Shown one piece after another: positions 2,655-30,400 of a stretch of 64,000 nucleotides of DNA. Each line of letters opens with the position of its first letter. The stretch's first letter is position 1. The DNA is taken from positions 909,338 to 973,337 of the forward strand of contig CAUJNA010000513.1 in assembly GCA_963377175.1 (NCBI GenBank). The letters are read 5' to 3'. The DNA is from Effrenium voratum. Taxonomy: Eukaryota; Sar; Dinophyceae; Suessiales; Symbiodiniaceae. The position numbers and the translations under genes were made by a program. The notes under the pieces are model-generated. The model saw only the letters and a program-made list of their open reading frames with translations. It ran no database searches and was not told where the DNA came from.

Positions 2655-2674
2655 TAAAATATATAATATTTAAT

Positions 2675-7300: not shown

Positions 7301-7804
7301 TATAACGAAAACATCAAACTGGTTTATACTGATACTGACAGTTATGTAATTCAAACAATGACTGATGACGTCTATAAGGATTTCAATGATATAAAGCAAC
7401 ACATGGATTTTAGCGACTATCCACCTGAACATCCATGCTTTGACAAAACTAATAAAAAGGTCTTAGGAATGTTTAAGGACGAAGTGAATGGAAAAATCAT
7501 TACTAAATTCATTGGATTAACACCTAAATCATATGCCTTCACAATTCATGGTGAGGGTGATGAACATAAGAAATCAAAAGGTGTAGTGAAACACAAAGTG
7601 AAAAAAGAACTGTCGTATCAGAACTATCACGAAGCATTATTTCAAAACAAAAAGCATGAAATCACATATAACTTCATCAGAAGCAAGTCGCATCAAATAT
7701 ATTCAATGTCTCAAGTCAAGCAAAGTCTGAGTAATTATGAAAACAAAAGGTTTTATATAGATGCTTTCAATTCACTGCCTTATGGGCATTACAGCATTAG
7801 GTAA
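4322..7804 (+). pseudogene. polB: Protein-primed family B DNA polymerase (PolB), interrupted by one in-frame TAA
   Basis: The frame runs from about 4322 (no in-frame ATG; nearest start-like codon TTG 4415) to 7804, with a single TAA at 6854-6856. N-terminal motifs are those of Maverick/adintovirus polymerases, including a C2HC finger near 5179-5242. The exonuclease has Exo I (YADFECLT, about 5340), a Cys/His cluster with DHCHFTGQYRG (5626-5733), Exo II (HNLKNYDAHL, about 5770) and Exo III (YLRTDVLLLTDVF, about 6241). Polymerase motif A is SYLDANNLYG (about 6537), motif B LMNNAVYGKT (about 7034) and motif C YTDTDSY (about 7325). The C-terminus ends with the family's LPYGHY. The stop falls between motifs A and B in the region before KYVVH with no frameshift, so it is a nonsense change. 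Motif A and motifs B/C would be separated, so the gene is dead unless the stop is read through. Confidence 0.9.
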
Positions 7805-7807
7805 AAT

Positions 7808-7852
7808 GATACGTCCCTAAAATGGGTGTTTGGGGACATATCATTTGAGGAC
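7808..7852. repeat. Hairpin-forming direct repeat, copy 1
   Basis: A 45-bp sequence starts GATACGTCCC and ends TCATTTGAGGAC, with GTTTGGGGACATATC in the middle. The two arms pair around a short loop; this copy has two extra mismatches. It begins four bases after the polymerase stop codon. Confidence 0.7.
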
Positions 7853-8025
7853 GGTTTGCGAAGAGCTCCCTTGAAATTGGGGTTGGTCTAAAACATTGAA
7901 ACAAAAAATCGGCGAGAGTTTAACCTTACACAACGGTTTAGGGTTGTAAGACAAAACGCCCGACCCACCCGCCCGATAGCTTGTAGTCGCCGAGGGAGGT
8001 GCCTTCTGACAAACAGGACTCACAC

Positions 8026-8070
8026 GATACGTCCCCAAAAGGGGTGTTTGGGGACATATCATTTGAGGAC
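8026..8070. repeat. Hairpin-forming direct repeat, copy 2
   Basis: This is the second copy of the 45-bp repeat, 218 bp downstream in the same orientation. GATACGTCCCCAAA pairs with TTTGGGGACATATC (13 of 14 Watson-Crick, the other a G-T pair) around AGGGGTG. The 173 bp between the copies (7853-8025) holds nothing I recognise. Confidence 0.75.
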
Positions 8071-8105
8071 ATTTTCAAATAAAAAATCTAAATAGTTCTA
8101 ATAAT

Positions 8106-8240
8106 ATGAAATTACTAGAATTATTTTCATGCACAGGGTCGGTTGGTAGGGTTGCTCGGGATTTGGTTTTTAGTGTTATTTCCCTTGATTTGAAAAATGC
8201 AAATATCAATACTGATATTTTGAGTTGGGGTTGTGGTTGA
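8106..8240 (+). pseudogene. 5' stub of a DNA cytosine-5 methyltransferase
   Basis: This is a 44-codon ORF. It begins MKLLELFSCTGSVGRVAR and continues with VISLDLKNANINTDILSW before TGA. In the small viral methyltransferase family the first motif reads LELFSGTGSVGK and binds S-adenosylmethionine; here FSGTGS is FSCTGS, so even the glycine loop is altered. The following SLDLKNA-x-INTDIL is the second motif of that family. The catalytic Pro-Cys motif and everything after it is missing, and the bases downstream do not continue the protein in any frame. It is a truncated relic lying between the hairpin repeats and the minisatellite. Confidence 0.7.
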
Positions 8241-8460
8241 AACTTGAAATGACCTAATGTCAGGCTCTGTAGGTAAGCTCGGCAAACTCGCTCCCTTCAT
8301 GCTTTGTTTGAACCCTCTCCTCAACAGAAAAGGAAAGAAAAAAGGACACGACAAAACACCCCTAAAAGACAACCCTGTGTCAGACGAACCTAGAACAGGA
8401 CAGTCTCGTAGCGGACGTTCAGCGTGACTTCATAACCTCAGGTCAGGCACATGGTGGACA
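8241..8460. other. Non-coding spacer
   Basis: I see no gene or repeat here. The sequence is less AT-rich than the viral genes on either side and leads into the minisatellite. Confidence 0.5.
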
Positions 8461-9091
8461 TACCCAAAAGGGGGACAGCCTACCACCCAAAAGGGGGACA
8501 GCCTACCACCCAAAAGGGGGACAGCCTACCACCCAAAAGGGGGACATCCTACCACCCAAAAGGGGGACAGCCTACCACCCCTACCACCCAAAAGGGGGAC
8601 AGCCTACCACCCAAAAGGGGGACATCCTACCACCCAAAAGGGGGACAGCCTACCACCCACCACCCAAAAGGGGGACACCCAAAAGGGGGACAGCCTACCA
8701 CCCAAAAGGGGGACAGCCTACCACCCAAAAGGGGGACAGCCTACCACCCAAAAGGGGGACAGCCTACCACCAAAAGGGGGCCTACCACCCAAAGGGGGAC
8801 AGCCTACCACCCAACCACCCAAAAGGGGGACAGCCTACCACCCAAAAGGGGGACAGCCTACCACCCAAAAGGGGGACAGCCTACCACCCAAAAGGGGGAC
8901 ATCCTACCACCCAAAAGGGGGACAGCCTACCACCCAACCACCCAAAAGGGGGACAGCCTACCACCCAACCACCCAAAAGGGGGACAGCCTACCACCCAAC
9001 CACCCAAAAGGGGGACAGCCTACCACCCAAAAGGGGGACAGCCTACCACCCAAAAGGGGGACATCCTACCACCCAAAAGGGGGACAGCTAC
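8461..9091. repeat. 23-bp minisatellite
   Basis: The unit is ACAGCCTACCACCCAAAAGGGGG, with an ACATCC variant and several truncated units, repeated roughly 27 times. It has no stop codon in one frame, giving an artefactual long ORF. The core CCCAAAAGGGG also occurs in the nearby hairpin repeat at 8034-8044. Confidence 0.95.
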
Positions 9092-9328
9092 TGGTTTATC
9101 AGCTTTTTTCACGGTCATCCTGGTTTCTGATGGCAATCACGAAACAATGCAGTTGTGAGACTGAGGAGCAGGACTGATAACAACGCCTGCCTCTGTCAAA
9201 TTAACTTTTGTTTATTAATATTATTATTTCATAATATGATTAAACATTGTTTTATAATCTAACAAGAAGGTTAAGACAATTAAATTTAACATGAAACCCA
9301 GACCAGCCGACCAGCAACCCCCTAGCCA
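9092..9328. other. Non-coding spacer
   Basis: This is AT-rich sequence between the minisatellite and the next promoter box. I see no ORF or structured element. Confidence 0.5.
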
Positions 9329-9369
9329 AAACTACTTAAAGAAATATTACCTTATATATTAAGAGAAAA
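9329..9369 (+). promoter_or_regulatory. Early-type viral promoter box (copy 3)
   Basis: AAAACTACTTAAAGAAATA starts at 9328-9329 and is followed by TTACCTTATATATTAAGAG and the start codon at 9370. It is nearly identical to copy 2 over both elements and in spacing. Confidence 0.65.
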
Positions 9370-9896
9370 ATGAACGGTGATGGAATCAATAATTATATCG
9401 ATCAAAAATGCTATGATTGTTGTCACTTCAAAAAAGAAAATATGGAATTGTATAAATTGAATTTGCCTAATGAAATAGTGAATAATATTATTAATTATTC
9501 AATGGATGGTGAAGAAGACATATGTACAAATTGTAGAAATTGGAGATATGATCAAGAATTAATCAAATGTCTGTTGGGAATAAAATTAATAAATAATAGA
9601 AATGTAGAAGATGATATTTTAATATTTCTAACTGTAAATAAAATACCACCTTACGATTATGTTAAACAGATTCTTAAAATCAGTAAGAAAAATATGACAT
9701 GGTTTATGATATATTATGGATGTTGGGTTATAGTCAAGAGAAAGGAGAAGATGTTAAAGAAAATATCAAATTATTTATTGAAAGTAAAAAGTTTAATATT
9801 CAAAATACATTGAGAGATGTTAATATTATTTTTAAAATGATGTATGAAAGAAGTAAGACAAACCAATTAGATTATTATCCTGAACTGAAATTATAA
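9370..9896 (+). pseudogene. Hypothetical Cys-containing protein with LPNEI motif, frameshifted
   Basis: The first frame (9370-9813) begins MNGDGINNYIDQKCYDCCHF and contains LPNEIVNNIINY near residue 35, which looks like the first helix of an F-box (LPxEI/LxxxI), and a second CxxC (CTNC). From about 9695 a different frame (9699-9896) gives the better protein, with the natural-looking continuation MLGYSQEKGEDVKENIKLF; the first frame there turns into Lys/Ile-rich filler. A single frameshift around 9690-9720 in a gene of about 175 codons explains both. The F-box reading is weak; it could instead be a zinc-binding viral protein. Confidence 0.5.
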
Positions 9897-9969
9897 TCAT
9901 AATATAATAATAACATGTAAAATCTTATATGTTATAATTATACTGAACTTTTAACCTATAACACCCCCT

Positions 9970-10012
9970 TAAACTTATCTAAAGAAATAACCCCTTAAAC
10001 ATATAGAGACCA
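9970..10012 (+). promoter_or_regulatory. Early-type viral promoter box (copy 4, diverged)
   Basis: AAACTTATCTAAAGAAATAA is followed by CCCCTTAAACATATAGAG and the start codon at 10013. It matches the other three copies less well but has the same order and spacing. Confidence 0.45.
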
Positions 10013-10514
10013 ATGACAGACAAAAAGCAATGTTCCAAATGTAAAGTCTTTCAATTGTTAGAAAAGTTCAACGAAGGAAGAAAACAATGTAATGTATGCT
10101 TGGAGAGCAAACGACGGTATAGAGAAGCACACAAAGAACAACTACAGCAAAAGTCAAAGGAGTATTACGAAAACAACAAAGAGCAGATTGTAGAGAAGAA
10201 AAAGACATATAGAGAGAATAACAAAGACACTATAACTGGAAAAGAACAAGATTTATCGTGAAAAGCATAAAGACGAAATAAAGCAAAAATCAAAAGAATA
10301 TAGAGAAAAGAACAAAGAAGACATAAATGAACAACAGAAAGACTATAACAGATTGAAAGTAGAATGTCCTTTATGTAAATGTATGGTAGGAAAATACAGA
10401 ATGAAAAAACACCAACAAACAAGTAAGCACCAACTAAGAGTGAAAGGTCAAGAAAACAATAACGATACTGTGAGAGATTACATGGAAACAACAAGTGACT
10501 TTGAACAAGAATAG
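10013..10514 (+). pseudogene. Zinc-ribbon / coiled-coil / C2H2 viral protein, frameshifted
   Basis: The N-terminus carries two CxxC pairs (CSKCKVFQLLEKFNEGRKQ, then CNVC), followed by a Lys/Glu/Tyr-rich repeat (KSKEYYENNKEQI type) likely to form a long helix. The first frame ends at 10261. From about 10238 another frame continues the same repeat without a stop to 10514 and adds a C2H2 finger (CPLCKCMVGKYRMKKHQQ, then TSKH). The protein was therefore about 165 residues and is split by one frameshift near 10230-10240. This arrangement is common in proteins of algal giant viruses and PLVs; it is probably nucleic-acid binding. Confidence 0.6.
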
Positions 10515-11346
10515 GAATAAACAAATGAACCACCAACACCCCAGAACAAAACAACTACTAAAAGGGCCAACTCTTTCAAATGAAAAAAATGTCGGCCCCC
10601 ACAAAATCCACCCCTAACACCTTACAACAAAATATAGGATGAAATCAAACAAGGGTGTTAAAACGTTGGATAACAACATTTGACCCAATAACCCCAACAC
10701 TCCTCCCTCTTCCCCTCAGGGCCCCCCTTTTCTCCATTTTCCTACCCCCCCCCCCCCAAAAACCTACGTAATAGACGTCGGGCGGGGGGGGGGTTAGGGG
10801 GGGGGTTATCCTCTATCCTCTCTTAGGTGTCCGACACGCCGAGCAATGTCGGCGGATATATGTGTTATGTATATCTGACTTTACCCTCTACTAAAATGAT
10901 GATTTTAGTAACAGCAGAAATCTAGCAAAGACTTACACGTTGAGTCAGGCTGATGGTTTATGGCTGAAGGTTGGCCAAAGTTTGGTGCGGTTCAGGTCAG
11001 AGCACTCTAACAGTTTGTAGCTGAGCTTGACCCAACGAGCCTTCCACTAAGCCCTTGGCCCCCTCAAAAAAGAAATACTGCAACAGGTGGGAACATCGGC
11101 CCCGTGAGCCACCAAAAAAAAGGAAAAACAAAGGAACCGGCCAAATATGATGACCCCCCCCCTACCAAAAGTGGACAACCTAGCCCACAAAAAGAAACGG
11201 CCGTATCATTACCCCTAGAACAAAAACTCAACAACAAACCGATGGGTTAACCCCATGAGCCTGAAAGCGGACACCAAAACCCACCTCTGCCCGTGGACGC
11301 CTCCGCCTCCGCCTCCTGCCGATCGCCTCCGATCGCCGATCGCGAG
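10515..11346. other. Junction between viral block and host gene
   Basis: Coding sequence stops and composition rises from AT-rich to GC-rich. The stretch holds C- and G-runs (about 10746-10758 and 10784-10808) and a motif (ACCTACGTAATAGACGTCGG and following GTGTCCGACA) that recurs near 57780-57820. I see no exon in it, so the upstream exons of the fumarate reductase gene must lie beyond the viral block. Confidence 0.6.
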
Positions 11347-13317
11347 GCCATCCCGGGGCTCTACGCGGCCGGGGAGGTGGCCGGCGGCGTGCACGGCAAC
11401 AACCGCCTCGGGGGCAACTCCCTGCGCCTCGACTCGAACCGACTCGAACCAACCAGCGAAAAGCACCGCGCATGGCTCTTGTTTTTTTTCTTCTTCTTTT
11501 CTCTTCTTTTCATTGCATGAGCATGTGGGTGTTTTTTGTCAGTCAAAAAGTAGGTGGTCAGCCCCAAATGGGTTGCCCTGATGAATGGGAAAGAAGGACG
11601 GATAAATATGCGGTCCAATTCCTGGTGGTTTGATTTTTGGACCCACAGTTGACCCCGCATTAAACCAACCAGAAAATCCGCTACCCTAATTGGTGGTTTG
11701 GATTGGTGGCTTGGAGGTTTAGAGGCCAGGGGTGGTTTCTCATCAACCCACAAGAGCCATGGGTTCAAATCCAAATCCAATCCACACCCGGCAAAACCAT
11801 AAAAACCATACGTAGATGACCTTTTGGAAGAATAGATGGGTGTCCCTGGCTCATGGACCAAACCCCCTTGAAACCAGAACCACATTCCTGTCCCCAAACT
11901 CACCGACCAGGACACCAAATGCTGCCCGGATTCATAAACCCATCCTACTAGGGACTTGTGCCCCAGTGATGATTCCCCACGAAGTTCAGGGACGCTCCCG
12001 TTACGTCAGGCGTCACCTTTTCGCCCGCCTGATGTAACAATCGCCGTGCGTTGACCTGGGCATGACTTTGGCAGCTTGCATGAGTGTCACGTAATTAAAG
12101 CACCTGGGTAGCCCCCAGTGTCCAAGCAATAGCTCCACAATTGATAACTCACCCACAACTCAGGGTTCACCAATCATGGGGTCACCCACAAAGTGCTTTG
12201 GGAGTCCCAACACCCCCGAATCAAAATCAATTACGGGGTGAACTTGGCTGTTCTTGTTTTCTATTGCTTCAAAGGGCAGAATCCTCCACTTGAAAGGTGT
12301 CTGTTAGTTTCTTGCAAAGTTTCGGTTCAAGCCATTGTGTTCTTCTGGTTGCTTGGTTTCTTCCAGTTCTTCCAACTGAAATTCCAGTCCGTTTGGAGCC
12401 ATACGAATCCTGTGGTTCTTCCAACCTGCTACTCCAAAAAAATCCTCCAAAACAGCGGGTTCCGAAACATCAGCTGGTTTTCAGAGGAGGTTTTAACCTG
12501 GGCTTCAAAAAGCATGCGGAAATTTTCCGGGTTTCGACTACCTGGCGCTGAAATGCACCACGTCACTTTGGTTTCGGTTTCTCTCAGCTCACTTCGGCGA
12601 GGCTGGACTGCGTGGTCTTCGGGCGCGTGGCGGGCCAGGCAGCCGCCAAGTGCCCACAGCTCGAGCCGAAACGAAGGTTCGAACGTTGGACGCCGACGTG
12701 GGGGGGTTGTTTTTTAGAGGTTGGACCCCTCAAGCTGACGGCCTACAAAGAAAAGAGGCGACATGTCTTGTTTCTTTTTGTTGAGCCCCCCAAACTGGTG
12801 GTTTTGCTTGGTGTTTCCCTTTCAGAACCACCCAAAGAGATGGGTAACCTCAAGCAAAGATACACCCACATGTTGTCATTTGGCCCCCTGTTTGGCTTTT
12901 CCAGAATCAAGCCAGAAGTAGTGGTCAATTGCCCAATCTGGGATTTCCTACCAGCTCTTGAACGGACCTCGACCTTTCATGTTAACGCACCCCCCCTTCT
13001 TGTAGGTAGAGATGCCGACAGCGGCTGCAGCCACGCTTCACTTCACTTTCGGCAAAAGTCCACTTTTGGCGGATTCAACCCCCAAAAAGGAATCGATAGT
13101 TCCTTTTTGGGACCTGAACCAGCCTCGCAAAGGATTCGGAAGCGCGAAAAGGGTTTCACTGGGCAACTCGGGCTTCAGAACCCCCCGAAAGGGTGGTTTT
13201 TCTTGGCGAGCGGGCGGCGAGTGGCGAGGTACATGCTGGGCGCGGACGTGAAGGCCGTGGATCTCATGGAGCTCACGGGGGGCTTGACGGGCCAAGTGCA
13301 GAGCTCCAAGCTCGCAG
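11347..13317 (+). CDS. Module: C-terminal end of FAD fumarate reductase domain
   Basis: Exon 11347-11423 encodes [19 protein letters not shown] followed by RLGGNS, the FAD-contacting signature of soluble fumarate reductases (Osm1/FrdA/flavocytochrome c type). Exon 12602-12649 continues with [17 protein letters not shown], exactly the next block of the family; the split falls inside the LL pair. Exon 13229-13317 adds [19 protein letters not shown]. The Arg in HGNNRLGG is conserved in the family for flavin contact. Only about 70 of some 450 residues are here, so substrate-site residues cannot be checked. The donors after 11423 and 13317 are GC, and the one after 12649 is GT. Confidence 0.75.
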
Positions 13318-15604
13318 GCGCGGAAGCGCGTAATCGGCTCACGGGGGAGGGGGAGGGGGAGGGGGAGGGGGGGGTGTGAAGGTTCATGGGTTTGTTGTGA
13401 ACTCGAACAGAATCATCAAACGAGAGACATGTGTGGGTCTTGTTTGTTTTCGGGCCCAATTTCTACCTTGGGCCTTCAGAGCACCCCACTTTATAAAGTT
13501 TGAGGCCTGAGAAGTGTCTCCAGGTGGATCCTATGAGGACAAGATGAACTCCGCGCCCGCGGCCACTGCCAATGGAACTGGCGGCGGTGGTGGCGGCATC
13601 ACCATGTCAGATGTGTCCAGACACGCAAATCTTCTGGCTGCTCTGCTCCCCTTTTCGCCTTTCCTTTTAGGGCGGTGTGCCCCACCAGCAAAGATGGTTG
13701 TGATTCTATGGTCACTTCAGTGGACTATAATCGTTAGTTTCTGATTTCCCCAAAAGACAACCCAATGGATTCTTACTTTGCCCACCCGTGTGACCTTTTG
13801 CGGGGTTTCTGGCAAAACTACCTTTGTAGGTGTCATTTTGTTTGAGTGGTTGTCTAAATCAGTTCACTTGTTCTGGTTTCCTTCATGTTGCCCTTTATGA
13901 TTTCCCTTCATGTCCAGCTTGCTCAGCAAAGTAAAGTATTTGTTTGTTTGGACGCTCAGATTTCGTTGTTTGTCTCTCTTTTTCTTCTGTTTTCTTTTAG
14001 GTGGCCAAGCACAACTCGAAGAGCGACTGCTGGGTGGTGGTGGACGGCCAAGTGCTGGACGTCACCTCCTTCCTCTCGGAGCACCCGGGAGGCGAGCTGG
14101 CGATCCTGACCTTCGCCGGCAAGGACGCCACGGAGGAGTTCAACATGAGACTCGGCGTGGGGCAAAAGTTGTTGAAAGGAAACCCGTCAGGTTGGGGTGG
14201 AGTGGTGGTTTGGATTTGGATTATTTGGATTTGGATTGGTGGATTGGTGGTTGGTTAAAACCTCGGGGAACCCGTCAGGTAGGTTGTTGGGTGGTTTGGA
14301 CTTTAACCCCTGCTTCCTGAGGGAAAGCTACCCATGTTTGGTTGGGGGGGAATTTGAATTTGAGCCCCTGCTTCTTGTAGAGGGGGAAACTACCCCGTAA
14401 CCTCCAAACCACCAACTAGAGGCAAGCTGAAAACAAGCATATCTCCTGGTTCTTTAGACAGGGAAAAAGAGAGTAAAAACTGTCGTGTCTTCGAGGGTAC
14501 CTTGGTGTGTTTTGCGCAAAGTGAAGGCAAAAGGACGAACACCATTGTTGGGGGCCCCTGACCCACCTGGTTAAGAAGTGAATCCAGATAGGATTCAAGC
14601 CGCCACCCCTCACCTGCCTTCCCCTGATTTGTTGGATGTTACTTCACATGGCCTGTTCAGTTTGCCAGATTTCAACTTGTGGTAGCAAGTTGAAGCGCTT
14701 CGGTCTGCGCTCTAAGCTCTAAAGGCACACAGATTGAGAAGCAGCCTCCCTGATCCTCTTGCTGGTTTCCGCGGCACTTCGTCCAAGCTGACCTTGCAAC
14801 CTGCTGGTTGCCGGCGTTGGCTCGACTCCAAGCTTTTTGCTTAATTTCGGGACAAAGAGGAAGCTGAATCCTGGTTGTGGAACATAGGGTTTAGGGTTTC
14901 CAGTTTGTCTGATACCAAGGCACCCCCGTCAACAAAGATAAGGTACATAGTCTTGAATCAACCATAAAACGTTGCAGAAAAGGTTATGGTTCACAACCAT
15001 GCTGGAGTGGGTTTCTCTCCACAACTACGAAAGCATGAACCCCAAACAAAAACAAAACTTCAATTTAAGATCAACGGACCCAGCTGAGCGCTTAGGATCC
15101 ATCCCCCCGATGTCATCGGCAAGTACGCCCCGGACTCCATCGTCGGCACCCTCGGCGGCGGCGGCGGCGGCGGCGGCGCTGTGGCCAACGGAGGCGGCGG
15201 AGGCGGAGTTGCGGGCGGCATCCCCATGGAGGAAGTGGCTCGGTCAGAGAAATCAGTTGGGCGGCTTGTCCCTTTTTGGGGAGAACACCCTTTTAGTTTG
15301 GTTTTGGGGAAACCACCTCCAACATCTTGTTATTTTCATTTTGCCTGCATGAACCTTCTTGGATTCTTGCTAGCTGCCTACAGGAACCCTCAGCAGCTCA
15401 TTTGTAGGTTCCCTGTGAGTCTCCATAGAAATGTCGGCGAAAAGGATGTCTCCTATTCCAGGTCATGAATGCCTGCAGAATGCAAGACACAGTGGACTCA
15501 GAGGATCTTAGAGGATTTCCAGGCCGTGTGTTCCCACGTGTTCGGGTGTTTGGTAGGTCTTAGGAGGTCATTGTTCATTGCAACCCCAACGGCAGTGCTT
15601 CTAT

Positions 15605-15635
<31 letters not shown>

Positions 15636-18600
15636 CTCGAATTGGGTTTTGGTTTGGTTGCCCTTTGCATCAAAGGAGGGGTTCGGCTGGTACAAGTTTG
15701 CCCATGTTGGCGGGTTTTATATTTATTTGGCGTGCAGCGGGTTGTTGCAGCATTCCCTGTGCAGTTTCTAGAAAAGTTGATCCCCTTGGAGTTTCAGCTG
15801 TGTCTCGTTTATTGCAAAGAAGGCGGGTTTCCATGCGCAGAGTTTCCTGTGGATTGGTGCAGGTTGCCAGTCTTCAATCAGGCCATACTGGAAGCCCTGC
15901 CTGCGGGGTTCCTGGGAAGGGCAAACCTCGCTCCAAATGCAGACCCCTTGCGCCTGTTTAACTCTGCCTCTCTGCCAAACTCAATTTTGACGCATCCCAC
16001 ACGAGTTGCCTTCCTCAGTTGCCCTTACTCCACAAGCACACCCTGCAAGGTTATTGGAGAGTTTGAAGCTGATGGTAGCCGACGACAAGATGGTGCTCGT
16101 TTTTGCTTGGTTTTCCTTTACACCCATCTAAATCGGGAGGAGGGTAGTTTCAAAGAAGACACGCCCCTTGTAACCTCTTTGGATTTCCAGAAGTTTCTAG
16201 CGTGTTTTATTCCACGCCTTTGTTTGCAAATCTGCAATCATCGTTTTCTTCAAATCCATGTGCAAAGTTGTTCCAACCAGCTACCCACCGTGCTTTGCTC
16301 TTCCCCGCAGTAAGAAATCAGTTTGCGGAGTTTCCGTGGTGACTTGCCTCTCTTACTTTTACGCAGGCGATCCTCTAATAGCAAAGCGCAACTCGAACAG
16401 ATGGCTCGAACAACTGCCTTTTGGAAAAATCAACTCTCTTTCTCTTCTGAATCAACCTGGTTGTTTGTCTCCTTTTTTGTCTGTTTTTTCTTCAGGTGGC
16501 CAAGCACAACTCGAAGAGCGACTGCTGGGTGGTGGTGGACGGCCAAGTGCTGGACGTCACCTCCTTCCTCTCGGAGCACCCGGGGGGCGAGCTGGCGATC
16601 TTGACCTTCGCCGGCAAGGACGCCACGGAGGAGCCAATCGGTAACGCACGCGTGTCCTTTTTGTTGAGGACTGCTTTAAGGGGAAACCAAAGCGAGAACC
16701 ACACATTTGTAGGTGATCCCTATTTTGAGGCACACACACACATGTTGGTATAAGATGGTGATTCAAATGGATTGCGCCGTTGCGGAGAGCATTTGGACCC
16801 GCCCCCCAGAAATCCATGTTTGGACCTAACCCCCCTCATTCCCTTGAATTATGAGGGGGTTCCTTCTAAATTACTTTTTATGAGGTTGTCTTGAATTGGA
16901 AATCGGAGCCCCCACAGCATCGTGCTTTCCCCTTTGGTTTGACTTTTCAACCAGCCCCAAAAGGGGTACCCTGGAAAAGGGGACAAACCCATGAAATTCA
17001 TGGTTGACTAAACATGAAACAGACTCTAAAACTGATATCCCAGATGTGGGCGAATGCTTAGATCTGGCGAGTGTTCCCTGCCTTCACTTCGAATGGTCTC
17101 AGAGAAATGCTTTCCAAAAAGGCATTGAGTGATCCTCTTGACGGGGGGATATCCATCTATCCCTATATGTATGTACATATATATATATATATACATATGT
17201 ATATCCACATGTGTATGTCTATATATACGTTTGGATCTATGAGTTGCACAATTTTAAACCGGCAACACTTTGCCACGACGTTTAGGCCATTGTTCCCCCT
17301 CGCTCCTTAAGAGAGGCTGCGAGGAGTGGCTTCAAACTCCCGAGCCCGGAATGTTGTTCATGGCTTGAATTGACAAACAAACAACATACACAATGTTGGC
17401 GAGTCCCCAAAAAGAGAGAGAGAGAGAGAGAGCGCCTCAAGAAATCCACCCCCTTCTGAAAAGGCAGATTCCCTCAACGAAACATGTTGGCGGGTCAGAG
17501 AGCAAACAAACATCCACCCCCTTTAAAAAGGGGGGGTCCCTCAACCAACAAAATGGAACATGGTTTGAGTCAGGAGTTCAACATGATCCACCCCCCGGAC
17601 GTCATCGGCAAGTACGCCCCCGACGCCGTCATCGGCGCGGTGGGCGCCCCCGGCGCCGCGGCGCCCGCCGCAGCCGCGAAGGCCGGCGGGGCGCCGGCGC
17701 GAAAGGACCGGGGGGGGGGGGTCTCAAAATAGGAGTGTCGCTGTGGCGTTCTTTTTGTGGAGGTTGGGGCAGTTGTTAAGGAAACCCAAAGAGAAAACAC
17801 GTTTTGTTTGGGGGGGTTACCTGAAAGCAGACACACCCAAAGAGTGGACCCTTAAATGATTGGTTTTCGATTGGTTCCAAGCAAATACCCATCAAACGGG
17901 TCCACCAATACTCGAATGTGGTTTGGTCCACATCGCGAGAATGGAGTTGACCTCATGGGCTTCCATGTGAGGATCTAGGAGCATTGAACTATTCGGGGGG
18001 TTTCTCAATCTGGTCAAATGGTGGACCCCTGTTTGGTTGGTGTCAAAGGGAAACCAAAAACCGTTTTTCTCCATCCCAGCTGTGAATCCATCTCCCATTT
18101 TGGGTTGGCAGAGAAACCCGAGGACAAGGGTGGGAAGTTGGCGAACCACCACGCCTGGGGCCACTTGGACGGCGACCTGCAGCCCAACTGGCGGGTGGAT
18201 TTGGAGGACAATCCAGGCCCGACACGGTGGGGGTTAGCTTCAAAGAAAAACACTGGCTGTAGGTCTAGGGGCACCTTCCCCATTCTTTCCAGGGATCCTT
18301 CTTTCTGGAAAACCACCAACAACCATTGGGAAATGGCTGGTTTTTGAAAAGAACGATGGCTGAAAAGAATGGGGAATCAACCCTAGAATAGCTGTCCTTT
18401 TTGGTTGGTTTGGTTGAAAAAGTAGAGGGCCCTGGTTTACCTGTTGGTTCAATCATGTACCAGGGCCAAAAAGGACACCTATGCTTAAAAGAGACCCCCA
18501 CAATGTTTTCGCAACGGCCGGCCCGGTGGGGTTGTTTGATGTCGGATGTCGGTGTTCCTGTTGGAATTCCCCTCAACACCCAGCGGTGCGCTCCCCCCAA

Positions 18601-21600
18601 AAATACACTCCCGTGCAAGGTTTGGTCAAGTTCTCCAGATTTGTTTCTGGTTCGGTTGAGACGGACTTGGGGGAGACTCACTAAATGTCCGCACAAAAAC
18701 CCGGGGACTCACCAAATGGTCCGAGCTTTACGTCCTTTTCGGTCACCCCATTTGACTGTGAATCATTTGAAGGTTCCGAACCTCAACGCTCCCCACGACA
18801 TATTTGGGACCCCGTATCCCTGTTCGCTGACGGTTTTATTTGATCATTCTCCTTCGCAGTACTCGCATCTTAAGGTTTCAGCGTGTGGTTCCGGCAAGTT
18901 GAGACGTATCCACCGAAGACGTTTCCTGCCTAAAGATCTTACTTGGAAGCCGCCCAAAATATCAGATACAGACCCATGTTCTTGGAGTCCTAGGGCCCCT
19001 ATTGAAGGTGGGCAAAACAGAATCTATGCTTTTGGGCATACAGATGCGTTCCAAGAAATTGAGTCTACTTTGACTCAAAAGGTGCGCTGCTGATCAACGT
19101 GAAGTCGTACTTCAACGCCACCTGGTTCCTGCTGCTGTCCGTCCTCTACGAGGTGAGAACCGATCTCGCCGTTGCTCTCAGGTCCCGATGGTTTGGGAAA
19201 GAATGAAGCAACACGCTTAAGGGACGTGTACTGTATGTGTGGAAATGTGCACAACTCACTGCCACGCAAATCTTGACATTTGTGCAGCCATAGCCTCCCA
19301 AAGTCCTTCGAAAACCCGCCGAAACCCTATAGCGACGGAACTGGGAGGTTTGCACCACCATCCTCAGGTCATAGCCCGTTCCAAGAACCCTCCTGACAAC
19401 CCTGCTTGCGAGGCAGGAGGCCCACATTGGGAGATCTGCACATCCAAATCTGAAATGGAGAAAGCTGAGCTGTGTATGGGCGTAACCTGAACGGACACTT
19501 CTTCCGCATGTTGGGGGAAATGTCCGCGACCAACCAAAGCAAAAAAACAATCAAGGGCGAAAAAGGGGGATCGAAACGAGCCGAAACGAGCCGGGGATCG
19601 AGCCGAAACGAGCCGAAACGAGCCGAAACGAGCCGCAACGTTTGGGAGGTCTGCGCCACGATCTTCACGGCCAAGAACATCAAGATCTCCAACGACCGGC
19701 TGGGCCTCACCCGCAGCGCCATTCTGCTGATCCTCTTCATCGTGATCCACGCCGTGGGGCAATCTGGCCGAGAGGACGGGCTGGGAACCGAGGCCCTCTT
19801 GGTGTCCGAGAAAGAACCACTCTAAAACGAGTATCTTCAAAAAGACACCCTCAAATGCGACCTAGTGTGGGTGTGTCTTTTGTGAGCCTACCCTTGTGGG
19901 AAGCAAACTGATGAACTTGCTTTGCCGTCCATGTCTGAACTTCTTTGGCTCACAGGTCAGCTAGGTCCCTCATATGAGCCGCAGCTCTGTTGCTACCCAG
20001 AAATCGGGTTTCCGTTACGGGCTGCACAAGCTCATCATATGTGTCATTTCTTTCACAAAGTGCTGGACTGTTTGGACAGTGACCCAAGTTCGCCTCACTG
20101 ATAGGCACGAGACAACTTCTCAACAAGGTGTTTCTCAAACTTGGGTGTCATCCGGGCTGATTGTCTTTGGGTTTCCCTTAAAGACCAGCCAAGAACGGGT
20201 CACCTTAGAGACAGATCCATTCACCTGGAGGGTACGAGCCGTGAGACCGAGGAATCTCCACGTCTTCAAGGGCCCGGACGACTTCAACGGCTACGGCTAC
20301 TTCTACGTGCGCCTCTACTGGACCGGCTTCGGACTGCCGGCCAACATCGTGGAGGAGTGGAGGGGTCTTAGAGTCGCCAAGTTGCAACGAAGGGTTTAAG
20401 CCACACCCCAAAAAAGGGGCCTAAACGCAGCCTCTTTGTCAAGCCAAACACACCCCCTGCCAAAACCGTTTCAAACGTAAGAGGGTTCCTCAGGTTTCCA
20501 ACCGCAATGGTCATGGTCACAGAAGCCTTCTGCGGGGCCTTTCAAATGGATCTCAAGACAAGTTTTCGAATTTGACGTGGCATCTAATTGTTTGTTTGGA
20601 ACCCCGCCTTTTGGGATCCAAAAAGGCGTGGTTCTAGCAATCCGATGAATCCCTTCAAGATGGATCAGCGCCCAGACGTTCTCAACAGATGAACCCATAG
20701 CGGTGCTTCTCAAGTCGAGTCTTGGAGATAGTGGTCGCATTTGGTGTTTGGGAGGGGTGGTTCGGATGTCAAGGCAGCAGGCTTCTAAGATGTCAACCAC
20801 TTCAACCAGGTTCATTTCAAACAAATGTTGGCTACAGTTGGCCCTCAGCATCAAGAAATCCATGGTCCACTCGGGCAACCGCACCTGTGGACCGCCTGCG
20901 GGAAACTGGATATCCCGACTAGGTGGCTTTAGGTATCGCCTGTTGATTGCTTGCTTGCTATTGTGTTTTGTCCCCGATGAAGACTCATATGGGATGGTCA
21001 TCAACCTCTGAGCCAGGGGTTAGACAACCCCTGTACAGGTTCCTTTACGGCAACCATGCGATGGTGGAACGCACATACAGCCTCACAAGGAAGAATGAAG
21101 GGATCGCCCAAAAACTCCTCGGGTGGAGGGAGCCTTGCGTTCATTTGTTTCCTAAAACGAAAGGGCAAACCCCAGCGTGTTACTGCAAGCCTTCCTCAAA
21201 AAAGACGGGGCTCCTCAAAAAGATACACGCTGCCCATTCAAAGCAGTCCGTCTTTGGGGGGGGGGCTTCAGGTGGACAATCTAAGAACCCCCTCTACACA
21301 ACTCTCACCGCAAAAAGCAAACCTGTTCTCAAAGGAGGGACCAAAACAAGCAAAACACAGTCACAAAAGAGAGAGAGAGAGAGAGAGAGAGATGAGGATA
21401 CCCAAAGACAGAGGCCATGTGGGGCAAATGTCCAGATAACAGTACAGAAGCAATCCTAAAGGGATGCCATCAACACAAACCCACCCACCCACACAAAAAG
21501 CACACACACATCCATCTATATACCGCCCATTTTTTTGCCATTAATTATACCCTCAAATTCATTCACTCCTTTGTAGGAGTACATTTTGCTGAGCGTGCTG

Positions 21601-24600
21601 CTGCACGTCTTCGTGGGTTTGAAGCGCACCTGGGACATGAAGCTGGCGCTGGTGAACTCGCAGGGCATCAACGTGCTGAACTTGGCCATCTCCGGGCTGA
21701 TGCTGCTGACCTTCATGACCATCCACCTCTTCCAGCGCCTTGGAATTTGAGCCGGTTGAAGCGTGGTGTTCAACCTAAAAGCGGGTGGGATGGATTCGGT
21801 TGAAGCCAAAGAGAGAGGAATGGGGTGGTGTTCAACCTAAAACCGGGTGGCGGCCCTTACCTCAAAAGCTTTCAACGCAACAAATTGCCAGGGGGGCATC
21901 CCAAAAAGTTGGAGGGCGTGGATGTAGGAAAGCCCGGCCCCTTGAAAGTAGTGGAATCCGCTTGAAAGTCACCGAGTGGTCATGAGATCAACTACCTCTT
22001 CAATGGGTTGGTTGGTGCTCAGCCCAAACAGGGTGGAGTTATGCCCCAAAAAAGCTTGCATTCCCCCAACTTAGAAAGACCGGGGTTCCCCCACCTTCTC
22101 TTCCGGAGACTTGGAGGTCTGTGAAAATGGTCAAGGGTCAAAATTGGAATTTGGACCCCAAAACGGTGGTTGTCCTTTGGGTCTTCCTTGGAACCAAGGG
22201 TGAAAAAGGCTGCGCACCCTTTTTCTCTTTGTGGTTTGGTTTCCCCTAAGATGCAGAGGCAACCAAAGACGATCTTTGGAGAAAACATCCAGGAACGTGG
22301 GTCCCTAAGGGAAACCAACGCTTTGCGAGGTTGTTTAAGCAAGAATATGGCGGAAGATGTGGTTTTCGGTTGTTAGTTTCTGTGAGTGGCCAAGGGAAGC
22401 CCCTTGATTGTGACAAAGTCCTGGGGGGGTGAATCACGGGGATTTGTGTAAAGTCAATCCAGGAACAGTCGCGAAAATCGGATCTTTTGAAGGCCAAAGC
22501 CCGTTCTCAAGCAGACCTTCAGGAAACCCAAGCCATTCACCCAGTTCTTGCAACACAGGGGGTACCTTCCACGACAAGACTTCAATAGCGACGAAAACAA
22601 AAATAGCAGCAATAAATAATTGAGCTTCATACCACGACAAATAAAAAAGGTTCATACCACGAAACAGATTTTGGTCCATACGGCTGTTCCAAAGAACATG
22701 TGTTTTGCATTCTTGGGGTCCGAAAAGTACAAAACACACGTTCTTTGAATCAAGCGTCCATTGTTGGAAGAAGGGAAGAAGGAAGAAGGAAGGAAACAGG
22801 AGAAGGAGGGAGGCCTGTTTCAAAGAAGGAATGATCCGCTTTTTGAGCTTATCGTGATTATTATTATTTGTTCGTAGTAAGAAAAATAATTCCGAGTCGT
22901 GGTAGGAACAATTTCTGTCGTGGTTGGAAAGCTGTTGTGAAGCGTGGTTGGTGCACCCCCTCATTCTTGCAAGGATGTTACAATTCGGAAGGACACAATC
23001 CCCATAGCTGATCACTATACCCGTTTTCCAGGTGAAGCTGCTTCTTTGGTGGGCTACCCACCTAGTGCCTCACTTGGGTATGTGACGTCATGTGAGTGTG
23101 GCTTAGGGAACCCTCAAAAAGGGCGGTGTCCCTTTAGTTTTCAATTCAAAATAAGCCCCAAAACAGGCGCCCTCCGCCCCAAACAAAAACCAACCAGCCG
23201 AGTGGCGCGAGCGGAGGTTCCGCTTCGGTGACACGGATCAATTCGGGCCTTACTACGTGCGCCCACCTCCCTACTTGATCAACTTCTGGGGCATTTTGTC
23301 GCTGAACCTCTTCTGGACCCAGGCGTGATCTTAACAAAAAGCCTCTGTTTAGGTATTAGTTGGTTTGTTTGGGGAATTCGAACCCCTTGTTCTTGTGGTT
23401 AAATGGAAAAACACCCCAACCAAGCCACCAAACCAAACCACTTTGGGGTAAGGTCATTTGTGCGGCACGTTTAAGATGTTGTTCTTAGCGGGGTCGATCG
23501 CTTGCACCAAAGCATGTGGAATTTGGGGGTTGATCAAAAGGTCCTTCCATTACATGTAGTAATTGAGGAAATCCACAAACAAGATGATATTTCTCACTAA
23601 ATCGGAAGCATTATCCTTGGTCGTTTGGGGGCCAAGACCGTACGGCTTACCCAACCTAAGGGGACCATCAGGACATTCTGGGCGACCAGACCCCATATAG
23701 AAACCTCACAGATTTGGGCTGAAGCACCTCTCATGCTTCGATAAACGGCCCAAGCTGAGCCTTGCTCCAAGTCCATTGAGATAAGAAACACATGGTTCTT
23801 GCACGGACCAAATTTCGACCCCGAGGTCTCTGGAGAAACCGTTTTCTTTGCTTTGGCTGCATTCAGTTCATGGTTGTTCTCTTGCGACCTTGAGAACACG
23901 TGGGGCCATCCTAGGGAATGCTCAGAGAGCTTTCATGGCGAAGGTCCCAGAAAGTCGGATTGATCGGACATTGGAAATGCAAAGCAACCGCCTGCCTTTC
24001 CCTTGGCAGCTGGCAGGACACATCCATCGAGCCGGTGGGCGTCAGAGACATCTACGCCTTTCGTCCAGGGTTCTGCGCATGCTTCAAGACCGCCAGGCTC
24101 TGCCACATATTGAGTGGTCGTTTTAGGAGGCACTCCAAAGGGGGGGGGTGATCGCTTAATTAGATCGACACTGCGATTGTCTTCAGGGCGGACCAGGAAG
24201 CCAAGAAGCCATTCTGACGAGTGGGTGGTTTACAAAAAAGTCGTCAAGAAAGTTGTCCAGGCCTTGGTGTCATGTTCTCTCTCGACCAGCTATTGGAGCT
24301 TGCCACGGGGTCGGATCAGTCGCTCCAACGGATCGTTTTATTTTGAGTTGAGCCTTCCAACTTGGCATGCTCTGATGGTACCCTTGTTCAATATTTGCTT
24401 CATGGGAAGCCAGAGGGGAATGGTATGGGCTTTGACCTTGCTTGCCCCTTTGTGGGTTCCCATGTTTTTGTTAAGGTGCTTAAAAGTATTCAACCTGTGA
24501 TTTCTCATTCCCAGATCAAACTTTCGCTTTGTTTGGACCATGTTTTGGCCAGGCTCTGCCGGTGATCCCTTCGATGTATGGTTCCCTAAGTTGGGCCACT

Positions 24601-27432
24601 GAGTGCGTGGCTCTCCATCACTTTGAGCGAAGGCAGCCGTTGGAAATCCGAGGCCTTAGAGTTCCAGATCTTCAAGAACCCCCTGCGCCCTGATCGGATG
24701 CGAGAAGCAAAGGGCCCTCGTTGATGGTTGTTCTTTTTCCCGAGGCATGGGCATGTGTTCTGTTGTTTCTTTTTTTGTAGCTTGTTCCACGATGTAAACG
24801 GAAACATGGGCTGGGCTTTGTGTTTTCTTCCATGGTCCAAACGGAAGAAGGACAGCCACAATGTATTTTGGGGGGGCCCCTAATTCGACGCATAGAATCC
24901 AAATGTTTGTGTCCGAAGTGGTCACTGTTCCTTTTTTGAGCATGACACGAGTCCCCTTTAAGCGCGCAAATTTCCATCCTGGGAAAGGAATGCGCGAAAT
25001 GATTTTATGTTTCCCTGTGCCCATCAAATTAGCCCTTCGAGTTTGATCCGCCCTTTTCAGAAGCTGATTTGGCGGAGACGTGTTCTCCATTTAGTTGATT
25101 CCGCGTATTCTGGTCGTCCTTTTTGTCTCCCCAATTGTGTTTGGTTTTGAGTTGACTCTGTACCACCAAGAGGAGTTTTCTTGCCAGGTGGTCCTTGTTC
25201 TACATCTTCTACAACAGAAAGCTATTGGAAGCTAAGGTTGCAACTGGTTTGAAAGGGCAGCCTTCCAAACAGATCGGATTTCCTATGCCATTCTTGAAAA
25301 GAATCACATGGCTGTGGGTCAAATCTAATGGTACCATTCCACCCATTTTAGTCTATTTTAGTGGGGATTGGGATGTTCACTGGGGGTACTGATTTTGACT
25401 CATGGCCACATGGGTAAGAACAACATCCAAGAATTCCCATTCGCTGACCTGCGGCAACCATCCCTAGTGATAGTTTCTGCTGGCCAAGTTAGACGAACAG
25501 TTTGGGATCTAAAAACATCCCCTTAAGTTTTGAGCTTTTCCGGGCTTAGTGGTAGTTTCTACTACACTACCCTCACTCCCACTAACATGGCACTTGATAG
25601 AGGGTCCCTTGAAAAGAAAATTGATCTTCCAGGTGCCCTCCCACAGATGCTATGTTTGTGGGAGGAAGGCTAGGGGATCCATGGGTTGCAAAGATGTGAG
25701 GTGGTCCATGTTCTACATCTTCTCGGTGGTGATCTTCATGATCCACGCCTGCCTGGGCTGGAAGAAGGTGACCCCGGTGCTGGGCATCCCGCGGGGCCAC
25801 ATCGCAAAGGTGGAGATGATCGGCTACGCCATCATGATTGCCACACGGTTTCAGCAACAAAAATCCAGTCGGGTAGATGAAGGTTAGTAAGGGACAACCA
25901 AGATGCCTTGATTCTTTACATGGTAAAATGGTGCACCATTTTAGTATCAGGTTTTGCTGACTGCCGTGAGGTGGGTATCGCTCATGTCTTTCGGTTTCTT
26001 GGGGGCTCGGCAGTTCCCGGTGGTTTGGCGAAGTGTCCAAATTGGAAAGCCCCCAAAAGGAACGCCTCAACTTCCATGTTGGAGGGGGTCCCATACCCCA
26101 AAAAAGACGAGCCCATTTGGGTTTGGTCATGGGGGGTTCTCTGGATTTCCATCGGACACATCGCACAAGGGAAAACGAGACTCGGACCTTTCCTTGGGCT
26201 CCTTCTGGCTTCCGGTCCCACAGAACGAAGCAGGGCGGTTGCCCGGTTGCCTCGGGGTTCTTGGGTGTAGCTCCTTTTTCAGGCTGGACCTCCCCAAAAA
26301 AATGGATTTCTTCGGGGGGTTTTCCTGTTGGTGGCCCTGTAAAACCACCAACAAAAAGGGGGGTACCGAGGCTCAAGAAAAGATGAGCCAGCCTCTTAGG
26401 GAAAATCATCTCCGGGTTGCTTCGGGATTTGGGTGTTCCTTGCTCCTTGTGGTTTTCTGAGGATTCCTTGGCTCGATGGTTTGCTGAGAGGTTTCTTGCT
26501 GGGATCGTCCTTGGTGTGGCTTCTTGGATTCCTATCTCAGATGGTCTTTGAGGATGGGTCCGGGCTTAAATTCCTGTTGCTTTCAGGCTTCCATCATGCA
26601 GAGCACATGCACACATTCCTCGGAATTCATATCGCTTCCACTACCAGAACCATTGAAGCTGCTATAATTCGATATAATTTGTCAAGTATATGCCAAGTTC
26701 CGCTGATTCTTAAAATAAAATCTCCAGCTGCGGTTTTTGTATCCCTTTGGTTTTCCCCTTTAGTTTACAACATTATAGCGGAAAGCGGACTACTTCTTGC
26801 ATGGCCCCTCCAGATCTGATCTATAGAAGAGGGATCATAGAGTGCCCCGTATTTTTCATGTTTGAAAGGGAGGTGAATGTAGAAACACGAACATGTTCTT
26901 TAAGCTGTCCCTTTCAGAAATGTATGTTTCATCTTTGAAAATGATGTGAATAGAAGAACTCATATTCTTTAAGCTGTCCCTTTAAGGATGTGAATAAGTC
27001 TGCCTATGTTGTGGCGCGAGCTCACCGATCCGGGGTATAACGAGCTAAAGCCATGATAAAGGTTCTTTACTCGAGGATCCACTTCTTAATTCAACTTCTA
27101 CATTTTTAGGCAACATTCACGGAGCTTGATTTGTTTTGTATGAAGCACATCGCAGATGGCCCTTACTGCTCGGCCCATTGTTTTTTTCTCTAGCCTTTCT
27201 AATCTTTGAAAGGGAGGTTAATATATTTAAACAACAAATATAGAACTAAAAAGGAACAACCACATCTTCTTCAAGCTTCCCTGTCATTCCGATGTTTTGG
27301 TTTCACCTGCTCAGCCCGTTTCTTGTTGTTGTTTTTTGAGAAGCCGAGGTCATGGGCCTGGTCTACATCTCCTTCCCCCTCTACGTCATGGCCACCTCCC
27401 CCTTCAGCGGCTACGAGGACAGCATCCAGGCC
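11347..27432 (+). CDS. Fused fumarate reductase - cytochrome b5 x2 - cytochrome b558 gene (3' part, about 18 exons)
   Basis: Exons joined by protein continuity: 11347-11423, 12602-12649, 13229-13317, 13524-13612, 14001-14146, 15096-15234, 16496-16630, 17574-17705, 18123-18216, 19082-19152, 19649-19758, 20252-20354, 21577-21734, 23218-23322, 24017-24055, 24653-24684, 25701-25839 and 27349-27432. All are in frame across each junction. Order of modules: the end of a FAD-binding fumarate reductase, a Gly-rich linker, b5 domain 1, a long Gly/Ala linker, b5 domain 2, an Ala/Pro linker, then five membrane helices of succinate dehydrogenase b558 type. The likely reaction is electron transfer between a membrane quinol pool and fumarate in a mitochondrial or other organelle membrane. 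The 5' exons are not in the window, and the 3' end may include one more exon. I do not know this domain order from a described enzyme. Confidence 0.75.
14001..15234 (+). CDS. Module: cytochrome b5 domain 1 plus Gly-rich linker
   Basis: Exons 14001-14146 and 15096-15234 give a b5 domain starting [18 protein letters not shown], with the first heme-ligand motif EHPGGE and, across the intron, the second ligand in [15 protein letters not shown]. The HPGG ... IHPPD layout is that of the b5 domain of flavocytochrome b2. The preceding exon (13524-13612) supplies a Gly-rich linker ending ITMSD. The tail of 15096-15234 is a run of Gly, Ala and Val residues ending GGIPMEE, leading directly into the second b5 copy. 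The donor after 14146 is GA. Confidence 0.8.
16496..17705 (+). CDS. Module: cytochrome b5 domain 2 plus Ala/Pro linker
   Basis: Exon 16496-16630 repeats the first b5 exon with two synonymous base differences over about 135 bp (a third-position A/G before the GE of the heme loop, and CTG/TTG). Exon 17574-17705 repeats the second half ([17 protein letters not shown]) but then diverges to an Ala/Pro/Gly linker ending APARK. Both heme-ligand histidines are present. The polypyrimidine sequence before the acceptor also resembles that of copy 1, so the duplication included intron flank. The donors after 16630 and 17705 read GA. Confidence 0.8.
18123..27432 (+). CDS. Module: cytochrome b558-type (SdhC-like) membrane domain
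   Basis: An entry segment (18123-18216, with [17 protein letters not shown]) leads to a hydrophobic stretch (19082-19152). Helix I ends [20 protein letters not shown] (19649-20354), helix II contains [14 protein letters not shown] and helix [20 protein letters not shown] (21577-23322), helix [20 protein letters not shown] (25701-25839), and helix V runs from MIGYAIMI into [13 protein letters not shown] (27349-27432). The b558 family of succinate dehydrogenases has five helices with two b hemes held by four histidines in helices I-IV and the motifs HLxGNL, HLxxFRFG and DIY...NPxxxxFY; all are matched here, including VRDIYA. This is the membrane anchor and quinone-side domain. It normally is a separate subunit. 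Confidence 0.75.
25188..25213 (+). other. Duplicated exon start (decoy exon)
   Basis: GTGGTCCTTGTTCTACATCT and the next bases, preceded by TTGCCAG, match the first about 24 bases of the real helix IV exon at 25701 with one mismatch, then diverge. It looks like a partial exon duplication with its own acceptor. Confidence 0.55.
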
Positions 27433-30400
27433 GAGGGCTGGCCGCATCTGAGGGAAACCGAGGAAACGGGGAGCAGCAACGAGGAGAGGCAACAAGGCAC
27501 CAAGGAAATAGGTCACTCAAGCAAAATGACAACAAGAGACCAAGCGACCTAAGGCAGCAAACAAAGTTCAAGCACCAACCAAGCAACGAAATGGCTGACT
27601 CACCAGCGAACGAAAAAGAACCAACAGCCCAACAGACAATTACACACAAACAATCAAAAAGCCCACCCGTCAGTTTGTGGAAAAGCACTCACCCAAGCTC
27701 GGAATCTTCTGGGGAGGGTCCCAGGTGCGGGTGAGATCCCTCGGGGATTGTCTGCGCAGGGCTGCTTTTTTTGTTTCTTTGGGGTGGAAACAAAAGGGGA
27801 AGCGAAGGCCATGTTGCGGGTGCCCCTATGTGAAGACCGACCAATGTGTAATCATTGCCAAATATCGGCTTGACGACTGCAAAGGATGTCCCCTCCTGCG
27901 TGTTTTCAACATCGCCCTTTTCAAGTTGAAGGGAGCTTCCTCTGAGGATGTTTAAGGGGAACGGGGTAACCTGATGAAAGAGAAACCAAACGGAGGTTGT
28001 TTGACCTTGTTTAAGCAGTTTGGCGGTTTGCAGAATCCATCTTCCTTTATTGCATGCTCTATTTCACATTCAAGGTTCGTCAGATACATAGGGTTGCCGG
28101 AATCAAAACATATTCCTAGCTGGGGTTAAAAGATGATGGGGCAACATTTGGCGCCCACCAGAAGCGTCCCCTCAAGAACGGTCTTCAAGCTACCTCCCGC
28201 CATAGGTTCCATGTTCATTGGCGGGGCTTCCGTGTTTTCACCGCGATCCAGGCTCCCGGAAGGGTCGAATGAGACCCGACGAGACGAGTTGCGACCTGCG
28301 AGCGGCATGTAGCTTTCGTCAGCTGTGCCGATCAACGGATTTCAGGGCCCTTGGGCTGTTGTGAGCTGGGGGCGTGGATGTGTCCGAACCGGGGAACCAC
28401 CTTTAACAATCTAAGGCAGGTCTCGGAAGAAAACTCAGTGTTGCAGTTGCCCCTTATGGTGCAATGTTTAGGTGGGAAGTACGCTGAGCCCTGAAAAAGG
28501 AGGGGTGGTTTGCCCGTTTTGAGACAGACCCACTTTTTGGAGGAGACTCCAAAGGCAGCCTCGGTTTGAGCGAACCGCTCGCTTGAAGCGGCGGCGCTCG
28601 CGTCTTTGCGAGAGACGTCTCTCGCATGCCGAAGGCATGGCAAGCAAGTTCTGAGAGCACATGACTTATGTATCCGCCAGGAGAAATGATGACAAGGAGT
28701 CCTGCGGGTGCTCTAAAATTCCACTGGAAGCCGCGAGTTGGATCAGAGGTTTCCCCGAAGGACCCAGGAAAAGAAAGGGAAGCAGTTCGCTGAAATCAGA
28801 GGCTGGTGAGCCACAAGGCAATCATTCTGAATGGTCCTGGTCACTGGATCAACACCGTAAGATCTGGTCAAAATGACGGTGGTCGGCGTTTTTGTGCTGG
28901 AAGCTTCCCCGGGAGTATCCCAAGAATCACAACCCCAGAGCTCAACCTTCCAAGCCTTGACAATATCAGGATTCAAGGGTAAAAGCTTGTGGAACAGTTT
29001 CCCGTGATTTCCGTTTCCCTTTCAGGGTGGCATTTTTCTACCTTGTGCCGATAAGGCCAAGTTTGGGAGCAGCCATATTCCATATGAAACCAACCACGAC
29101 AACCCGACAGAACCATCGGTTACCCATAGGATCACCTCTCACGTCCAGATTCGCTGTGGGGTTCGAGGGACCACCTTGGTTTGGGACCTTTGTTGAATTG
29201 TTTGGAACCAAACATAGGATGGAAAAGGATCACTTGTTGGACCATTTTGGTGCGATTTTTTTCGGCGTGATTTCAGTTGGCTGACAAAAGTTGGGCCAGA
29301 AACCAAACAACTAGGCGGTCCAATTTTGCGTGTTCCCCCAAGGAGCCCCTCCAAGGGTTGTTTTCAACATCACCTTGTCGCGTGTTTCTCAAAACAAGGA
29401 AACCGCCTCCCCTTTTGGCATGCTTCTAAGCCAAAAGCAAGCCACCTGAAGGGCTTCCGCTTTCGCTGAGTTTCCCTGGGGGGTTTGCGCCCACCGAGCC
29501 GAGCCGCCTGGCCGCAGGCCCCGATGCCCGAGAACTTCGGGGAGGAGGCGCCGGACTTCGACGCCGGGGAGGCCCCCACAGGCGCGCTGATTGAGCCGCG
29601 GATCTCCCGCGAGCCCGGAGATGGGCCGAGCGAGGGAGACGAAAAGAGCAGGGAACAGGGGCACACGAAGTTCCCAAAAGAAACTGGGGGATGGTGACCA
29701 GGTAATTAAGACACAAAGCCGAAGATGGCTAGTTGAGGGGTTCCGACCCGCAAGCCAAGGGGTGCTGCAGCAGCCACCATCATGTTGCCACGAACCACAA
29801 GACCCAAGGGTTACAGGGTTACTTGTGCGGGTTCTTTGTGCCCGGGAAAGTCCAACTCAAGTTTGGGGAATCGTGTACTCCGCTGATGTCTCTCTTGACA
29901 TGATTTGATGAGCTGAGGTCCACCAAAGATGGACCCCAATGTTCAAAACAAATGCAGCTTAGTTGAGGCCAATGGCGGAAGTACATGTCCTCTTTCCCAC
30001 AATCATGGACATGGAATCTTTTCAAGAGGATGGTCGTCTTCCAAAATCCTCCTGTCAGCTTCTTTTGTTGCAACCGGGTCGCCACACACGGAAGTGCACA
30101 GGAACACTCACTAAGAGGGAAAAAGGTCTTTCACAGTGGGGCGTGTGCACAAAAAACATATTTTTTGGTTGGAGGCTAGTCCAACTGGGCTTGTCTGTGT
30201 TTAAGCCCCAGTATTCCCTTTTGTGCACACAAACCATATAGGCCATATAGGTTTTCCGGTTCTTTTGGCTGGCCTCGGGACACCAAGTGGAACGCCGAAA
30301 TTTAGTTCTCCGAGCTCCAAAGCTACAAAAGCGCCAGGCGAAGTGGAGCCGGAGTCGGACCAGTCCGCAGGGAAGCCTCAGCATCGCTCGCAAGTCTCAC

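Follow-up and report, generated by a model that had tools for sequence, protein, structure and literature searches.

To our knowledge, the quinol-fumarate enzymes known so far use iron-sulfur subunits or c-type hemes. In the quinol:fumarate reductase (QFR) of Wolinella succinogenes the b558-type anchor FrdC (PDB 2bs4, 1qlb) is a separate subunit and the electrons go through the iron-sulfur protein FrdB; similarly, the b558-family subunit of the Chloroflexus aurantiacus succinate dehydrogenase (PDB 9lay_C) is a separate subunit of a multi-subunit complex. The flavocytochrome c3 fumarate reductase of Shewanella (PDB 1qjd) is a related system, in which the feeding domain is a periplasmic c-type tetraheme domain instead of a cytochrome b5 and the quinol step takes place on a separate protein. 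Yeast Osm1 (fumarate reductase 2, PDB 5glg, solved chain of 471 residues) contains neither a b5 nor a membrane domain. A protein joining a fumarate reductase domain (FRD), b5 and a b558-type domain was not found described in the portions of the open-access literature covered by the search. Within these portions, a dinoflagellate fumarate reductase is reported to be upregulated 1.59-fold under an allelochemical (PMC13028991), a hypothetical fumarate reductase is listed among retrogenes (PMC12014239), and fumarate reductase is mentioned, there without this domain order, in PMC6439486, PMC10480425, PMC3660698 and PMC8611851.

The window, i.e., the whole 64-kb stretch of Effrenium voratum DNA that was analysed, carries at 11347-28272 on the forward strand the 3' part of such a gene (Table 1). 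Splicing of 19 exons at exact boundaries yields one open frame of 602 residues followed by a stop codon, in line with the single joined frame that an earlier note on this DNA had proposed; 18 exons lie where that note had put them (11347-27429) and the 19th lies past its end. All 19 acceptors read AG/G, the 18 donors are GC (10), GT (4) and GA (4), and the introns span 206-1509 bases; non-canonical donors of the GC/GA kind are familiar from dinoflagellates. The upstream N-terminal exons lie outside the window, and in the annotated E. voratum protein P0001 442 residues precede the first residue of exon 1. The FAD-contact end of a soluble fumarate reductase claimed earlier is indeed found in exon 1, but no more than roughly the final tenth of the reductase domain lies in the window. 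In the two blocks compared, the spliced protein is identical to P0001 (150/150 and 355/355 residues). Between these blocks P0001 is without exon 6 and has 39 residues of exon 7 misframed (window 16516-16632, where identity in the wrong frame is 100%), and for this reason the public model conceals the second b5 domain. An Rfam search gave no match.

Table 1. Exons in the window and the parts of the protein that they encode (window positions; TM, predicted membrane helix).
Feature	Position	Strand	Encoded part
Exon 1 in window	11347..11423	+	fumarate reductase, FAD/substrate-contact end (26 residues)
Exon 2	12602..12649	+	fumarate reductase C-terminal part
Exon 3	13229..13317	+	fumarate reductase C-terminal part
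Exon 4	13524..13612	+	reductase end, glycine linker, initial residues of b5 domain 1
Exon 5	14001..14146	+	b5 domain 1 first half, HPGG (predicted heme ligand)
Exon 6	15096..15234	+	b5 domain 1 second half, second predicted heme His (IHPP), glycine linker
Exon 7	16496..16630	+	first half of b5 domain 2, nearly identical to exon 5
Exon 8	17574..17705	+	second half of b5 domain 2, followed by alanine-rich linker
Exon 9	18123..18216	+	linker preceding membrane domain
Exon 10	19082..19152	+	bulk of extra helix TM0, which is not covered by the alignment to bacterial b558 anchors
Exon 11	19649..19758	+	TM0 end, TM1 with candidate heme-ligand His
Exon 12	20252..20354	+	highly conserved loop (21 residues)
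Exon 13	21577..21734	+	TM2 and TM3, each with one candidate heme-ligand His
Exon 14	23217..23322	+	TM3-TM4 loop
Exon 15	24017..24055	+	TM3-TM4 loop
Exon 16	24653..24684	+	approach to TM4
Exon 17	25701..25839	+	TM4 with candidate heme-ligand His, TM5 start
Exon 18	27349..27429	+	TM5
Exon 19	28252..28272	+	final residues APGRVE, stop codon

Positions 1-10600 of the window are AT-rich, with plus-strand ORFs that resemble those of viruses or polintons; the ORF at 4283-6856 (+) encodes an endonuclease VII domain (PF02945, E 3.5e-05), and together with 6857-7804 it carries motifs that we take to be those of protein-primed polymerases. A tandem array with a 23-base unit (46 or 69 bases also fit) marks the edge of the virus-like stretch at 8462-9088. 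If gene and E. voratum model are colinear, this stretch belongs to an intron longer than 11 kb. Long GTAT arrays, strongly skewed in base composition, occupy 39857-41500 and 56088-57542, the first of them running into a 100-base assembly gap (41401-41500), and a 76-base tandem repeat is present in almost identical form at 50107-50380 and 55523-55796, 5.4 kb apart.

The same domain order is found in other dinoflagellates. Relatives were taken from the best 120 of 569, 120 of 165 and 120 of 177 protein matches in searches limited by length and shared words, and at least 236 distinct relatives are present among the matches listed. Full-length proteins, running from the FAD motif near the start (required within the first 120 residues) through to the membrane domain, account for 69 of the 236, 36 of them with two b5 domains. 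The fusion is also present in MMETSP transcript proteins (P0130, P0136 and P0169 with two b5 domains, P0207 with one), so that the search of dinoflagellate transcriptomes proposed earlier gave a positive answer. All named relatives listed are from dinoflagellates, according to taxonomy look-up for Effrenium, Togula and Amoebophrya A25, and presumably also for Durusdinium, Symbiodinium, Polarella, Cladocopium, Amphidinium, Prorocentrum, Amoebophrya A120 and entries whose names begin with 'Kryp' and 'Scripp'; both Amoebophrya are parasites. In a midpoint-rooted tree of 67 relatives, both Amoebophrya proteins fall, together with some others, into a first group, and each of the remaining two groups contains Effrenium, Durusdinium, Symbiodinium, Cladocopium and Polarella, so that each of these five genera has at least two paralogues. 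The single-chain FRD - b5 - b5 - b558 architecture is real and conserved in dinoflagellates. It has apparently been overlooked so far; relatives are currently annotated as osm1, succinate dehydrogenaase (an Amphidinium protein) or unnamed protein product.

The flavin domain is of the Osm1/flavocytochrome c kind: in the relatives it is homologous over its length to Osm1-type reductases with the catalytic residues kept, and the arginine of the NRLGG motif is retained in 59 of 59. Osm1-type reductases are soluble proteins, whereas this chain carries six predicted membrane helices. In the draft exon join, PF00173 matches both b5 domains in two stretches far above the cut-off (E 2.8e-50), and each contains HPGG and IHPP, which confirms two b5 domains with both heme histidines. 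HPGG is present in all 112 b5 domains compared and the second histidine in 110 of them, the window's two included. The b5 domains are here internal, duplicated and placed between reductase and membrane domain, and their first-half exons are nearly identical (2 mismatches in 138 nt).

The number of b5 domains varies. Next to the 36 full-length relatives with two there are 32 with one and one with none by strict count, the latter being the misframed P0001, and the fragment P0096 has three HPGG motifs. Forms with one and two b5 domains are intermixed across the tree. Of eight protein pairs compared, four differ little or not at all outside a module of 94-96 residues (P0004/P0124, 953/953; P0008/P0125, 952/952; P0178/P0180, 935/935; P0075/P0134, 946/947). 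Wider differences separate P0197/P0198, P0017/P0200 and P0152/P0154. P0003 is identical to P0124 at 852/852 positions but lacks 195 residues of the reductase, apparently through a modelling choice, a reminder that differences between models need not be real. Moreover, either of two distinct exon choices in the window would keep the frame and yield a one-b5 product of 507 residues. The presence or absence of the module in otherwise identical sequences suggests alternative splicing, and the near-identical pairs together with the in-frame options make a splicing that changes the heme number possible; gene copies or annotation choices could also lie behind these pairs.

The membrane domain comprises six predicted helices (TM0-TM5), so that the five-helix anchor described earlier has to be extended by TM0. 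A further hydropathy peak at residues 703-721 of P0124 falls into an Ala/Gly linker and is spurious. The four helix histidines noted before are present in 235, 236, 234 and 231 of 236 relatives among the matches listed, and the loop after TM1 is highly conserved. The b558 assignment is supported at the level of profile, profile comparison and fold. All 29 members match TIGR02046 (sdhC b558 family; best E 2.3e-12), with the score of the first member (39.6 bits) lying below the curated cut-off of 96 bits. In common with that family the domain shows a diheme-type bundle with histidines on four helices, for which heme binding is predicted, but it is not a separate membrane subunit, as the frame continues from the reductase through the b5 to the membrane exons. 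A scan of bacterial genomes with the membrane profile, using two peptide patterns, gave 17 pattern matches and from these four Streptomyces loci. One of them (L001) has an sdhC-sdhA-sdhB-like gene row whose b558-type protein aligns over 191 columns (hhalign probability 95.8); there, three separate frames are used, including a flavoprotein and a cysteine-rich, iron-sulfur-type protein. Since the membrane profile found a single marginal match among PDB sequences (9lay_C, E 0.01), a fold search was used. The membrane domain was modelled by itself, because VIA-align of the whole-chain model hardly probed the residues beyond 795. The predicted fold matches b558-type anchors of succinate:quinone and quinol:fumarate enzymes, the match to Wolinella FrdC excluding the extra first helix.

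The start of the chain bears on its location. In 67 of the 69 full-length proteins the FAD motif starts no more than 5-13 residues into the chain, the remaining two having longer predicted starts. Neither a presequence nor a signal peptide would fit into so short a stretch, which does not support an ordinary matrix-targeted enzyme; the reductase side is probably cytosolic. The mean net charge is +0.25 before TM0 (57 proteins) and +2.19, -0.64, +1.08, -1.39, +3.63 and -0.78 after TM0 to TM5, respectively (59 proteins). In bacteria the positive loops would face inwards, to the side of the catalytic subunits. If TM0 crosses the membrane, reductase and b5 would lie on the opposite, acidic side. 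Either the b558 module may be turned round compared to the bacterial enzymes, or TM0 may not cross. Because there is no room for targeting and an extra helix precedes the b558 core, reductase and b5 would face the cytosol, docking on that face of the membrane domain which is the outer one in bacteria.

The reading favoured here, with moderate confidence, is a single-chain membrane quinol:fumarate reductase without an iron-sulfur domain. Its computed basis is the gene structure, the domain order, the conserved catalytic and heme-ligand residues, the fold match and the conservation across dinoflagellates; from these we infer heme binding, quinol as donor, a path from b558 via b5 to FAD and a direction towards succinate. 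The membrane domain, with five of its six helices forming a b558-type diheme bundle, would take up electrons from a donor in the membrane. This donor is most likely a low-potential quinol, a quinol being proposed because the domain resembles those of quinone enzymes. One or two b5 domains on glycine/alanine-rich linkers would carry the electrons onward, a b5 heme swinging on its linker from the b558-like domain to the FAD, where the Osm1-type domain would reduce fumarate. The b5 domain would stand in for the iron-sulfur protein: an iron-sulfur domain is absent from the window's chain in the domain search (25 of 33 families listed), and none was recognised in the Pfam lists of relatives among the matches listed. 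The earlier note had proposed a self-contained quinol:fumarate oxidoreductase with two b5 hemes in line, which might serve redox balance under anoxia; the single polypeptide and the b558 assignment agree with this, but two b5 hemes are not essential, as one-b5 forms are nearly as common. A fuller version is put forward only tentatively, namely an iron-sulfur-free single-chain QFR peculiar to dinoflagellates in which the extra helix turns the module, b5 docks on the formerly outer face of b558, and the number of b5 hemes varies from one to three, set by exon duplication and splicing.

Ubiquinol is on potentials a poor donor for fumarate, so that the electrons may in fact come from a low-potential quinol, or from NADH via a b5 reductase. 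It is rather unlikely, yet worth weighing, that the protein is NADH-driven, with a separate NADH-cytochrome b5 reductase feeding b5, FAD and fumarate and the b558-like domain serving mainly as anchor or second outlet. b5 domains in other fusion enzymes are supplied by b5 reductases, the missing presequence room in 67/69 proteins makes a cytosolic reductase side probable, and some annotators name relatives after osm1, a soluble reductase. However, four helix histidines retained in 231-236 of 236 relatives would be surprising in a domain that serves only as an anchor, and so would the strong conservation of the loop that follows TM1. Less probable still is a conduit in the manner of cytochrome b561, in which the diheme domain would move electrons across an endomembrane to cytosolic fumarate, with no quinone involved. 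The reverse direction, i.e., oxidation of succinate or another dicarboxylate with reduction of quinone, is very unlikely: b558 anchors occur in both succinate:quinone and quinol:fumarate enzymes, as the names of the fold matches show, and the Amphidinium annotation points the same way, but flavin domains of the Osm1/flavocytochrome c kind favour fumarate reduction. Moreover, Toxoplasma complex II subunits are reported to be shared with dinoflagellates, and myzozoans, including dinoflagellates, to possess complex II subunits of their own (PMC11285852), and a Perkinsus complex II is among the solved structures; an ordinary complex II thus probably exists alongside the single-chain protein. Finally, that two genes or a pseudogene merely appear joined, as the N-terminal exons outside the window and the virus-like stretch ahead of exon 1 might suggest, is highly improbable given the open frame across 19 exons and the identity to the annotated model over the blocks compared, and the two-gene reading is rejected because transcriptome-derived relatives have the join.

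If the single-chain quinol:fumarate reductase is confirmed, major marine protists would have a fumarate respiration of a separate design. The fusion of a flavoprotein like that of yeast with b5 and a b558-type anchor is shared by dinoflagellates ranging from Syndiniales parasites to coral symbionts, an architecture that the present names osm1, succinate dehydrogenaase and unnamed protein product obscure. The single-chain enzyme would be compact to express and study, and it would offer a natural system for asking how the heme number in an electron wire affects its rate.
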